This document shows, in pieces, positions 54,838 through 59,704 of a stretch of DNA of 64,000 nt (within the stretch, counting starts at the first letter, position 1; every line of letters begins with the position of its first letter). The stretch spans positions 1 through 64,000 of the forward strand of contig CACFCI010000001.1 of NCBI GenBank assembly GCA_902564785.1. The letters run 5' to 3'. Below the pieces are notes generated by a model. It searched no databases, was not told the origin of the DNA, and saw only the letters and a program-made list of their open reading frames with translations. Both the position numbers and the translations under genes were made by a program. The stretch is from an uncultured Pelagibacteraceae bacterium. Lineage in GTDB: Bacteria; Pseudomonadota; Alphaproteobacteria; Pelagibacterales; Pelagibacteraceae.

Positions 54838-56048
54838 TTAAATAACTCTAACAAAGATTTTGCTTTAATATAATTTTCATTAAATTCTTTCTTTGGTGAA
54901 CTATCTAATACTACACCAGATGCTGCGGAGATCTCCGATTGATTTTTATAATTTAATATAGATCTAATTATAATATTAAACTTCATATCTTGATTAAATT
55001 TAATATATCCAAAACTTCCTGTATAAATATTTCTACTTTCTTTTTCTTGTTTGTTTAAAAGTTCTAAAGTTCTAATTTTAGGACAACCAATTACAGATCC
55101 TCCCGGCATCATTGCCTTAATAATACTAATCAATTTTGTATTTTTATTTAATATTCCGCCAATTGAAGTAACATAATGAAAAAGATGTTTGTATTCCTCG
55201 ACATATTTTTTTTTGAGTATTTTAACACTTCCTGGTTTGCAAATTCTAGATAGATCACTTCTTTCCATATCAACTATCATGTTGTGTTCTTTAGTTTCTT
55301 TCTCATTATTTTTAAAATATTTAAGAGCTATGTTTTTATTGGATAGTAATTTTTTCTTAAAAGTACCAGCTATTGGTTTAGTAATTATTTTATTTTTTTT
55401 CTTATCTATTAATGTTTCTGGAGAGCAGCTTACTATAGAATAATCCTTGTCTTTTATCATAAATGACTCTGGAGATGCATTAACACGCATTAATTTCCAA
55501 AAAAAATTAATAGGATTAATTAATGATTTATTCTTATATTTTGTACAAATTTTAATTTGATAGGTTTCACCTTCTCTTATTTTTTTTGAGAATAATTCAA
55601 ATATTTCTTTATATTTTGCATAAGCAATATTAATCTTGAAAGGACTTAGTATTTGAGTTTTGTTAAACTGATAATTGAATGTATGTTTTTTTATATTAGA
55701 TATAACTTTAATATCTTTTCTAATTTTAATTATGGTCTCAGGTTTATAAAATATTCCTTTATAAAAATTTATCCTTTTTTTATTTTTTAAATTAATACCA
55801 ATTAAATTACATAAAATTTCATAACCAAAAAAACCAAGATATAAATCTGTTTCTTTTTTATATTTTTTTTTCTCTAACGAATTAAGAAATTTATGAATAT
55901 TTTTTTTTGTTAGAATAATTTTTTTAGAAAAATCAGTATAAATATTATACCCATCATCTACTTTATAAATTATTAAAGGTTTATCTGATTGATACAGATC
56001 CTCTAAATATGGGTTAAATTTAAACTTATCCTGGCTGAGTTCTTTCAA
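54834..56048 (-). CDS. pabB: Aminodeoxychorismate synthase component I
   Basis: Chorismate-using subunit making aminodeoxychorismate for folate (404 aa). The chorismate-binding domain shows GETYQIKICTKYK, NPESFMI-like ASPESFMIKDKDY, KPIAGTFKK, EHNMIVDMERSDLSRIC and the diagnostic PGGSVIGCPKIRTLELL. The N-terminal region is reduced. It overlaps the upstream MFS gene by 23 nt. Confidence 0.9.
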   Translation of the reverse strand: MKELSQDKFKFNPYLEDLYQSDKPLIIYKVDDGYNIYTDFSKKIILTKKNIHKFLNSLEKKKYKKETDLYLGFFGYEILCNLIGINLKNKKRINFYKGIFYKPETIIKIRKDIKVISNIKKHTFNYQFNKTQILSPFKINIAYAKYKEIFELFSKKIREGETYQIKICTKYKNKSLINPINFFWKLMRVNASPESFMIKDKDYSIVSCSPETLIDKKKNKIITKPIAGTFKKKLLSNKNIALKYFKNNEKETKEHNMIVDMERSDLSRICKPGSVKILKKKYVEEYKHLFHYVTSIGGILNKNTKLISIIKAMMPGGSVIGCPKIRTLELLNKQEKESRNIYTGSFGYIKFNQDMKFNIIIRSILNYKNQSEISAASGVVLDSSPKKEFNENYIKAKSLLELFK

Positions 56049-57246
56049 TTGCTTTCTCTATTATAGGTAAATGTATCAGACCTGCAAATAATGATAATGC
56101 GATAGATCCGTACCATGCATAGTCAAAATTTCCATTTAATTCATAAAATACACCGCCTAGATATGCTCCTAGGAAAGAACCAATTTGATGGCTTACAAAA
56201 ACTATTCCATATAAAAGTCCAACGTATTTTGTACCAAATATGTGAGCAACAATTCCATTTGTTGGAGGAACTGTGGATAGCCATAAAAAACCAAAAGTAA
56301 CTCCAAAAACTACCGAATTAAATATACTTGGCGGTAAGAATATAAAATAAATTATGGAAACTCCTCTCAATAGATAAATGGCACTTAAAATTTTTTTCTT
56401 ACTATACCTTGTTGCTAAATAACCGCTGGTAATCGTACCGGCCATATTAAATACTCCAATCAAAGCTAAAACCATTGCAGGTGTCCAGTCAGGCAAACCT
56501 TTGTCTGCCATATAAGTAGGAATGTGTGTTGCTACTAAAGCGATATGCCAACCACAAACAAAAAAACCTAAAGTGAGATAAATAAAACTTTTGTTTGCAA
56601 ATGCCTCTTTTAGGGCCTCTCTTGCTGTTTGATTGTTATCTTGATTAACTCCTACAGGTATTTTTGGAGTACTAACAAACAAAGCTACCACTAATCCTAA
56701 TCCTAAAAGAAGAGAAAAATATAAAAGAGTATTCTCCCAGCCTGTTTCAACTAAGGAATATCTTACAAGTAAAGGTGATACAAAATATCCAAATGAACCT
56801 GCGCAAGTAACAATTCCTGTAGCAATAGTTCTATTAGATGCAGGAAAATGTTTAGCTACTACTGATACTGGGATACCTATTGCAGTGGAGCCTAAGCCAA
56901 TTCCAATCATCACTCCTATAGTTAAAGTAAAATAACCTCCAGTATTATAGCCAGAATAAAAAAGCAAAACCCCAACTAAATAAAAAACAAAGCCAATAAA
57001 TATTGCAACCGCTCCTCCATATTTATCAGTAATTACACCAAACAACGGACTGAATACTCCCCAAAGTAATAACTGCAATCCCATAACAAAACCAAAATGA
57101 GAAATGGAAATATCTAAATCTGTATTAAAATCAAAATAAAATAAACCAAATGTCTGTCTTATTCCTAATGAAATTATTACAACTATAGAAGCAGCAATTA
57201 AAGTGATTAGTGCTTTTTTGCTAATAGTAAAACTTTCTGAACTCAT
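56026..57246 (-). CDS. MFS transporter, oxalate/formate antiporter-like
   Basis: 406-aa, 12-helix major facilitator. The loop motif GVITDKYGGAVAIF (loop 2-3) and GYLATRYSKKKIL (loop 8-9) are clear. The overall pattern fits the monocarboxylate/OFA-like group (family with YbfB/YcxA-type carriers). Substrate unknown. It overlaps both neighbours (metC-like by 4 nt, pabB by 23 nt), which argues for one transcript with mixed functions. Confidence 0.85.
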   Translation of the reverse strand: MSSESFTISKKALITLIAASIVVIISLGIRQTFGLFYFDFNTDLDISISHFGFVMGLQLLLWGVFSPLFGVITDKYGGAVAIFIGFVFYLVGVLLFYSGYNTGGYFTLTIGVMIGIGLGSTAIGIPVSVVAKHFPASNRTIATGIVTCAGSFGYFVSPLLVRYSLVETGWENTLLYFSLLLGLGLVVALFVSTPKIPVGVNQDNNQTAREALKEAFANKSFIYLTLGFFVCGWHIALVATHIPTYMADKGLPDWTPAMVLALIGVFNMAGTITSGYLATRYSKKKILSAIYLLRGVSIIYFIFLPPSIFNSVVFGVTFGFLWLSTVPPTNGIVAHIFGTKYVGLLYGIVFVSHQIGSFLGAYLGGVFYELNGNFDYAWYGSIALSLFAGLIHLPIIEKAIERTQPG

Positions 57247-58421
57247 TTCATAAATTTTAATGCTTGTTTTATATCATTTATTATATCTTTAGGATCCTCA
57301 AGTCCAATATGCATCCTAATTATATGTTCATCTTTGTTTACATGTGTAAATTGTCTCTTTCCTAGTGCTTGGTGCGTTTGATAAAGTGCTAAACTTTCAA
57401 AACCTCCCCAACTAAATCCATATCCAAAAAGTTTTAACGAATTTATAAATTTTAACACTGATTTTTTATTTTTTGATTTTATTTTAAATCCTAACAAACC
57501 TGAAGCTCCAGAATAATATTTTTTCCACAATTTATAATTTTGACTACCTTTTTTATATGGATAAAAAACTTTAATTATTTTTTTCTGTTTTGATAAAAAC
57601 TTTGAAACTTTTAAAGCATTTTCTTGGTGTTTGTCTAATCTTACATCTAAAGTTCTTATTCCTCTAAGAATTAAATATGCATCATCTGGACCTAACCTTA
57701 ATCCTGAAACCTTGCTTGTTTGTTCGACCAATTTAAAAACTCTTTTACTTATAGCTAAACTGCCACCCATTACATCTGAATGACCAGAATAATATTTTGT
57801 TGCAGAAACAATTGACATATCAAAACCTAACTTTATTGGTTTTAAAAAATAAGGTGTTCCCCAAGTATTGTCTATTGCTGTATAAATTTTATTTTTTTTT
57901 GCCAATGCAACTATTTTAGATAAATCTTGAAATTCAAAGGTGTTACTTCCGGGATTTTCAACAAAAATTAGCTTTGTTTTTTTTGTAATCTTACTTTTAA
58001 GGTCGTTAAAATCATTTGGATTATAAAATATTGCTCTGATATTAAATTTTTTTAAATATGTTTCTGTTAAAAGTCTTGATGGAGAGTAAACAGAGTCTGT
58101 AACAAGTATTTCATCATCTGGTTTCACAACGCTTAATACTCCAAGAAATATTGCACCAAAACCAGTAGGTGTTAAATAAACTTTATAACATTCTTCAATT
58201 TTTCTTAAAATTTGTTGTAATGCATATGTTGTGGATGTTCCCTGTCGACCATAATCAAAATTTCCACTTACTGGGTCTTTCAAATATTTATTTTGTGTTT
58301 TTTTAATATCCTGCATAGATTTGAAAATAATAGTAGAGGCTCTAACCACAGGAGGATTTACTGACTGATTATGAAAATCTTTAGCTGTATGTTTCAGGAA
58401 AGTCTTGAAGGAATTACCCAT
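57243..58421 (-). CDS. metC: Cys/Met metabolism PLP enzyme, cystathionine beta-lyase-like
   Basis: 392-aa fold-type I enzyme. TPTGFGAIFLGVLSVVKPDDEILV, VENPGSNTFEFQDL and the PLP-lysine region IVSATKYYSGHSDVMGGS are typical; GYGFSWGGFESLALYQ near the C-terminus resembles MetC (beta-lyase) more than gamma-synthases. It would convert cystathionine to homocysteine, pyruvate and ammonia. Related lyases act on other S-substrates, so the exact reaction is open. Confidence 0.83.
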   Translation of the reverse strand: MGNSFKTFLKHTAKDFHNQSVNPPVVRASTIIFKSMQDIKKTQNKYLKDPVSGNFDYGRQGTSTTYALQQILRKIEECYKVYLTPTGFGAIFLGVLSVVKPDDEILVTDSVYSPSRLLTETYLKKFNIRAIFYNPNDFNDLKSKITKKTKLIFVENPGSNTFEFQDLSKIVALAKKNKIYTAIDNTWGTPYFLKPIKLGFDMSIVSATKYYSGHSDVMGGSLAISKRVFKLVEQTSKVSGLRLGPDDAYLILRGIRTLDVRLDKHQENALKVSKFLSKQKKIIKVFYPYKKGSQNYKLWKKYYSGASGLLGFKIKSKNKKSVLKFINSLKLFGYGFSWGGFESLALYQTHQALGKRQFTHVNKDEHIIRMHIGLEDPKDIINDIKQALKFMK

Positions 58422-58428
58422 AATAAAT

Positions 58429-58457
58429 TTGATATGTTATTAAGACAATGCTATATC
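58429..58457 (+). promoter_or_regulatory. Promoter of basic microprotein gene
   Basis: TTGATA, 17 nt, TATATC on the plus strand, 36 nt before the ATG of the 27-aa basic gene. An AGGA SD lies at 58486-58489. Spacing and matches are good and no other plus-strand gene is near, so the promoter is meaningful. Confidence 0.5.
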
Positions 58458-58493
58458 CCATGAAAAACGTCAATAAAATTAAAATAGGATTAA

Positions 58494-58577
58494 ATGAGTT
58501 ACCCAAAAAAACATAGAGGCCGAAGAAAACAAGGGTCTAAAAAAAGAAGAGCTAAAAGAAAAAATAAGAAAAAATAA
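58494..58577 (+). CDS. 27-aa arginine/lysine-rich microprotein
   Basis: Too short for the track. ATG at 58494, after an AGGA SD with a 4-nt spacer, encodes MSYPKKHRGRRKQGSKKRRA and ends KNKKK. Nearly two thirds of its residues are Lys or Arg. It resembles small ribosome-bound proteins in composition (bTHX- or mS38/COX24-like tails) but I cannot assign a family. It is flanked by minus-strand genes on both sides and has its own promoter. Confidence 0.55.
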   Translation: MSYPKKHRGRRKQGSKKRRAKRKNKKK

Positions 58578-58582
58578 TTCTT

Positions 58583-59704
58583 CTACTCCTCTTTAATCCA
58601 TCCACCACCAAGCACTTTGTGGCCAAATTGGTCCTTACGATAAAAAACACATGCCTGACCAGGTGAAATGCCATCTTCAGGAAGTGTTAAATTAACTTTT
58701 GCATTATTGTTGTCTGTTAAATTAACTTTTGCCTCTAAAAGACTTCCTGTGGATCTAACTTTAACAAATAGATTTTGATCTAAATCCTCTTTGTTGGTTA
58801 ATAAATTTATTTCCTTTAAAGAAATTGTTTTTTTTCCAAGTTTTTCTTTAGGCCCAACTATTATTTCATTTTTATCAGAATTTATCTTTAATACATAAAG
58901 GGCTTCTTTATCTGAAACTTTAATGCCTTTACGTTGTCCAATTGTAAAATTAATAATTCCGTCGTGAACACCAATTACATTACCATCCAAATTTTTTATA
59001 TTTCCCTTCTGAAAGGAGTCTGGTCTAAACTTTTGTATTACTGATGCATAATCACCATTTGGAACAAAACAGATATCTTGACTGTCAGGTTTATCAGCAA
59101 CATTTAAATCTAGATTTTTTGCAATTTCTCTAGTTTTGTCTTTTAACATTCCTCCTAATGGAAATCTTAAATAATCTAATTGTTCTCTAGTAGTATTGAA
59201 TAAAAAATAACTTTGATCTCTATTTTCATCTATAGCTCTATACATGTTTGTAGTTTTATTTTCCGTAATACTTTTTACATAATGACCAGTAACTAATGCA
59301 TCAGCTTTGAGTTCTTTTGAAACTTCAAATAGATCTTTAAATTTAACAGTTTGATTACACTGAACACATGGAATTGGAGTTTCACCCTTTAAATAACTCT
59401 CAACAAAATTATCTATAACACCTTGCTTAAACTTGTCTTGGTAATATAAAATCTTATGCTCTATACCTAACTTATGTGCAACACGTTTAGCGTCCATTAT
59501 ATCTTGACCTGAACAACATTGTTTTGATGCAGCTACTTCTTTGCCATCGTCATAAAGTTTTAGAGTTATTCCAATTACATTATATCCCTCTTTTTTCATG
59601 ATACCTGCAACCGTGGAAGAATCTACTCCACCCGACATTGCAACTACTAAAGTAGTATCTGAAGGTTTTTTATCTAAACCGATAGAATTTAAATCTTTAT
59701 TCAT
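58583..59704 (-). CDS. mnmA: tRNA-specific 2-thiouridylase
   Basis: Thiolates U34 of tRNA-Lys/Glu/Gln (373 aa). ATP-pyrophosphatase loop is [14 protein letters not shown]. The catalytic cysteines are in [12 protein letters not shown] and [12 protein letters not shown]. The C-terminal beta-barrel ends [13 protein letters not shown] and GGGWI. Standard length. It converges on the 27-aa gene and is divergent from the DUF3553 gene. Confidence 0.96.

Follow-up and report, generated by a model that had tools for sequence, protein, structure and literature searches.

Results

Genetic organization of the metC–mnmA region

The analyzed DNA (64,000 nucleotides of the genome of an uncultured Pelagibacteraceae bacterium, referred to as the window) contains a short ORF located between a metC-like and an mnmA-like gene (Table 1). 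The ORF begins with ATG and ends with TAA, and 16 of its 27 codons specify K or R (59%). A sequence-only reading of the window had placed exactly here a tiny gene encoding an almost purely basic peptide, preceded by a Shine-Dalgarno (SD) sequence and without a neighbor on its strand, and each of these features was found. The metC-like gene is divergent, with its start 72 bp upstream of the microprotein ATG, and the mnmA-like gene is convergent, with 5 bp between the two stop codons. An AGGA, GGAG or GAGG core lies no more than 16 nt from the microprotein start in 107 of the 122 distinct upstream sequences examined.

Among the 205 ATG-initiated ORFs of 20–40 aa present in the window, this is the only one with a K+R content of at least 55% (the runner-up reaches 32%), and no ORF as basic was found in Markov-simulated windows (n = 30). 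It is therefore not a basic ORF of the kind that arises by chance. In many members of the genus (L006, L010, L011 and others), extra sequence of at least approximately 0.7 kb separates the microprotein gene from mnmA, marking a site of gene insertion.

Table 1. Features of the microprotein locus (window positions) and microproteins of other host families.
Feature	Position	Strand	Remarks
Microprotein CDS, 27 aa (MSYPKKHRGRRKQGSKKRRAKRKNKKK)	58494..58577 (including stop)	+	Same start and length in relatives; pN/pS ~0.11
metC-like gene	57243..58421	-	Divergent neighbor, outside the transcription unit; named from the sequence and the sequence-only reading
mnmA-like gene	58583..59704	-	Convergent neighbor, outside the transcription unit
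SD-like AGGA	58486..58489	+	4 nt before the microprotein ATG; from sequence; SD-like core in 107/122
-35-like box TTGATA	58429..58434	+	Per-base conservation 87–100% in the genus of the window
Conserved element GACAATGCTATATCC	58444..58458	+	Includes extended -10 TG-C-TATATC (58449–58457); flanking bases 95–100% conserved
Microprotein of family f32 (1.4 Mb), MGYPKKHRGRRKIGSRKRRAKRRAKKK			
Microprotein of family f25, MGYPKKHRGRRKRGSTWRRNKRRNKKK			
Microprotein of family f142, MGYPKKHRGRRKRGSKYRRNKKRQKKK			

The promoter and upstream element

In the genus represented by the window, the microprotein promoter has the nearly invariant form TTGATA-N17-TGCTATATC. The TATATC hexamer follows TTGATA after a 17-nt spacer, has a TG one base ahead of it and ends 36 nt before the ATG. 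A consensus promoter scan of the window did not list this promoter, because its -10 hexamer ends in C. The “good promoter” of the sequence-only reading is only moderate when judged by consensus, but the sequence GCTATATCC is identical in 109 of the 122 distinct upstream sequences of the genus (GCTATATCA occurs in two more). The upstream element shares bases with what is probably the -35 box of the divergently oriented metC gene; the conservation of the element may therefore serve both genes, not the microprotein gene alone. There is strong support for a functional microprotein gene that has its own promoter, and this gene probably forms a transcription unit by itself.

Other genera and families have different upstream sequences, in which promoter-like boxes were read by eye. 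In family f32 (L198, L199 and L200), a -10-like box, also recognized by eye, is located very near the microprotein ATG, and the mRNA may be leaderless. The promoter box was rejected as a regulon marker: near matches at other places in the genome number 22, hardly more than the 14 of a reversed-pattern control, and most of the ones looked at seem to be within genes.

Distribution of the microprotein in host genomes and selection acting on it

The microprotein (85–100% identity) is encoded by the window genome and by 20 of the 24 other genomes of the genus, and in all of them the gene divergently adjoins metC. Across the order, matches were obtained in 222 of 297 genomes (126 of the 150 of good quality) and in all six sampled genera of Pelagibacteraceae, and the 80 database loci fetched are all titled as Pelagibacteraceae or Pelagibacterales. 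Some misses reflect assembly gaps: metC and mnmA are missing from genomes G049, G051 and G089 as well, and the G144 sequence ends inside mnmA. In one genome that is 94% complete (G135, locus L093), metC is kept, a different gene occupies the place of the microprotein gene, and mnmA was not found. The microprotein is absent from the sister family f2; weak matches there (E ~0.05) were dismissed as pieces of unrelated ORFs.

The 155 cellular coding sequences comprise 125 distinct DNA sequences encoding 18 proteins, all of them 27 aa long and all starting with ATG. The length is still exactly 27 aa in genera whose mnmA is only ~57–60% identical. The pN/pS ratio of the 125 distinct sequences is ~0.11 (Nei-Gojobori proportions); purifying selection on the ORF is strong. 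Seventeen columns are invariant across 12 representatives. Residues Y3, P4, H7, G9, G14 and S15 do not vary. No exchange between K and R occurs at K5, K6, R8, R10, R11, K12, R18, R19 or K25, although a one-base change would be sufficient and synonymous sites vary; at positions 21–23 the two residues interchange freely. The fixed choice of K or R at nine positions therefore points to specific contacts made by the N-terminal part and the helix start, not to bulk charge.

Three more alphaproteobacterial families with genomes of 0.8–1.6 Mb (f32, f25 and f142) encode the microprotein (74–81% identity; Table 1), in gene neighborhoods unlike that of SAR11. In a Pseudomonadota-wide sample of 399 genomes, matches were found only in its two Pelagibacteraceae genomes.

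In family f32, the direct divergent neighbor of the microprotein gene encodes an MFS transporter (L198:1648–2850), and the MFS transporter encoded beside metC in SAR11 (window positions 56026–57246) is 35% identical to it over the full length. This similarity hints at an old locus common to SAR11 and f32.

The sequence-only reading had argued for a real function and had named the reading frame in close relatives as the point on which its proposal should be judged; the frame is kept. Because of the purifying selection, the exact length, the conserved promoter and the fact that other lineages have it at unrelated loci, the ORF is regarded as a real, functional microprotein gene, and its status as a genuine, strongly conserved but unannotated gene of SAR11 is strongly supported.

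Relatives encoded by phages

Scans of viral contigs identified 34 relatives of the microprotein, and a scan for an exact YPKKH-type pattern yielded 37. The core pattern GRRKxGSKKRR was found in at least 120 stretches, on at least 120 viral contigs, and characterizes a large family of 27–40-aa ORFs; approximately 70 of 73 new core-pattern stretches are short basic ORFs, mostly stand-alone genes. The N-termini of these short ORFs are of several types: MPHPHKNRPRK-, MSKADLKRKNHK-, MGSVLKKKRHK- and MVARTGLQKYGK-. The sampled contigs are viral, as indicated by PHROGs matches to capsid, protease, integrase, polymerase, primase and helicase proteins. By its sequence, the microprotein is a member of a large family carried by phages. 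Over their first 25 residues, the host protein of f142 and the protein of phage L211 are identical, suggesting that the gene has passed between phages and hosts. DNA searches of annotated phages revealed no homolog of the microprotein.

In L218, the microprotein gene starts 19 nt past a tRNA-Ser gene, and 10 kb of this contig hold 10 tRNA genes and a tmRNA gene; in L210, L260 and L230 it lies in similar tRNA/tmRNA clusters. Of 99 phage loci, 13 lie near tRNA genes, compared to 7.5 expected, only a mild excess in a set in which many loci are related. The regions L218:2056–7738 and L210:1077–7026 derive from large uncultured phages with ~10 tRNA genes plus tmRNA, the microprotein gene being among them. 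Ribosomal protein bS21 is encoded ~0.7–2.5 kb from the motif in L265, L282 and L276 (~0.7–1 kb in L265 and L282).

The gene has a replication-gene context in L312, L309, L351 and L342. Some phage microproteins are encoded in a structural module, and the capsid protein encoded there is 76–78% identical to those of pelagiphages HTVC023P/027P; in HTVC023P, HTVC027P and four relatives, the homologous region, which was the part scanned, lacks the motif. In one phage lineage, represented by L265 (8203–9345, minus strand) and L282 (8464–9588, minus strand), the motif forms the C-terminal tail of a 375–380-aa protein encoded between the head-protease and capsid genes, for which PHROGs gave no match.

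Comparison with known protein families

Searches of Pfam, NCBIfam, PHROGs and PDB gave no match to the microprotein, although HMMER composition filters may hide weak ones in such basic sequences. In Pfam, neither 12 members from the host and its relatives nor 8 phage members were matched. The motif is absent from the main texts of the literature searched. No homology to known ribosomal proteins was detectable by sequence comparison, which is weak at 27 aa.

Among the nearest known counterparts is bS22/mS38 (AURKAIP1/COX24, PF08213), a structural analog of eL41: these proteins have ~24–33 aa, ~60% K/R and one helix, and are prone to be missed in annotation. The size and K/R content of the microprotein fall within this description, as does the helix predicted for a phage homolog. 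In an AlphaFold2 model of the latter (mean pLDDT 82), an extended N-terminus is followed by one helix spanning residues 15–34 from S15; the model resembles the single-helix proteins bS22 and eL41. Borrelia bS22 is likewise a very short ribosomal protein that was unannotated (61% K/R; PMC10618245). The core is loosely similar to bS22 in one register (best hhalign register against F. johnsoniae bS22, RRKIGSKKRR to RHKVATHKRK, P 0.08), and one phage subgroup starts with MGSVLKKKRHK, compared to MGSVIKKRRKR in mycobacterial bS22. A shuffle test against bS22 was not significant; the control pair, Borrelia and Mycobacterium bS22, fails in the same way. Unlike the microprotein, bS22 has no Y-P-K-K-H-R-G-R-R-K tail. 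The Pfam model gives no support for membership in bS22/COX24, as no member tested reached the PF08213 cut-off.

The bS22 pocket of 16S rRNA is formed by h2/h27/h44/h45. Among 41 genomes of the SAR11 order, no protein exceeded the PF08213 threshold, and the pocket is therefore without a known occupant there.

With bTHX/Thx (PF17070) the microprotein shares the length of 27 aa, the M-G start, the KKK end and the highly basic character. Membership in this family is likewise unsupported by its model: no match above the PF17070 cut-off was obtained in 41 relatives or in 385 members of the class, and the locus is not among the weak matches. The likeness to Thx noted by eye (MG start, G-S/T, KKK end) gave alignment scores no better than those of composition shuffles. 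The microprotein may thus work like bS22 or bTHX, yet it is filed as neither.

Like phage-encoded bS21 (PMC6375957, PMC9723584), the microprotein is the product of a small basic gene common to SAR11-type hosts and genuine phage genomes; unlike it, the microprotein of the hosts is not among the known ribosomal proteins, and the two are not homologous. The bS21 encoded by a pelagiphage enters ribosomes (PMC6375957).

Discussion

Binding to the ribosome or the nucleoid, as proposed in the sequence-only reading, is plausible. Specific RNA binding fits best, because the tail has Y, P, H and G residues that do not vary and because of the modelled helix. Some of the phage contexts, with bS22 and phage bS21 as precedents, lead us to infer that rRNA is the most probable partner. 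Quite possibly, then, the microprotein is a tiny rRNA-binding, ribosome-associated protein that acts like bS22, eL41 or bTHX and is carried by phages too. The conserved N-terminal tail (G-Y-P-K-K-H-R-G-R-R-K) and the basic helix from S15 would make specific contacts with rRNA, and the protein would be a small ribosomal or ribosome-associated component with a mode of action like that of bS22/eL41/mS38 or bTHX. Phages would carry their own copies, as some do of bS21, to modify or stabilize host ribosomes in infection.

From the tRNA/tmRNA clusters and nearby bS21 genes of some phages we lean towards a role in translation; against a ribosomal role, other phages hold the gene beside replication or head genes. 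The microprotein cannot be a core part of the ribosome, because it is absent from f2 and most Pseudomonadota. A more specific version, which we put forward only tentatively, is that it represents a ribosomal protein so far unrecognized in SAR11 and further alphaproteobacteria with small genomes, possibly seated in the bS22/eL41 pocket, that phage versions re-equip host ribosomes, and that the host gene may have been exchanged with phages.

The main rival is a DNA-binding microprotein, serving nucleoid compaction or replication in the host and acting as a DNA-binding accessory or packaging tail in phages. Several points favor it: the content of ~60% K+R, the position of phage genes next to those for a Sak4-like protein, DNA primase, DnaB helicase or exonuclease, and the motif at the C-terminal end of a protein whose gene lies between those for head protease and capsid. 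We nevertheless consider it rather unlikely, since the strict choice of K or R and the invariant Y3, P4, H7, G9, G14 and S15 exceed what non-specific binding needs, and the tRNA/tmRNA clusters and bS21 neighbors in phages do not suit it. Basic antitermination peptides are known (e.g. lambda N), and a phage-type regulatory peptide that binds RNA or RNA polymerase for host takeover or antitermination, later adopted by hosts, would account for the large phage family of mostly short stand-alone genes and for the near-identity of the f142 and L211 proteins over their first 25 residues. This is improbable: the host version is fixed and nearly invariant and has a steady-looking promoter, which suits a housekeeping role, and no link to transcription genes was seen in the gene contexts.

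Many Pelagibacter peptides are present in catalogs of predicted antimicrobial peptides (AMPSphere, PMC10491242), and the microprotein is similarly short and cationic. A secreted antimicrobial or bacteriocin-like function is nonetheless very improbable for a peptide without a hydrophobic face, leader or export genes, which recurs in phage replication and structural modules and is too invariant for antagonism; neither its conservation nor its phage contexts fit an antimicrobial. It is even harder to believe that the ORF exists by chance or that only an RNA or a promoter is conserved. The upstream element does show strong conservation of its own, and it overlaps with the promoter of the divergent metC. 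However, variation is seen at synonymous sites but not in the protein, which is also found at unrelated loci and, encoded by different codons, in phages; no Rfam match was obtained at the locus.

Few bacterial groups are as abundant as the SAR11 bacteria, and few that are free-living have so few genes. A gene kept across their main family and missing from the family databases searched matters for this reason. The microprotein family has a clear short motif. If the microprotein is a component of the ribosome, it would be a new part of the SAR11 ribosome and would add one more to the translation proteins that phages carry.
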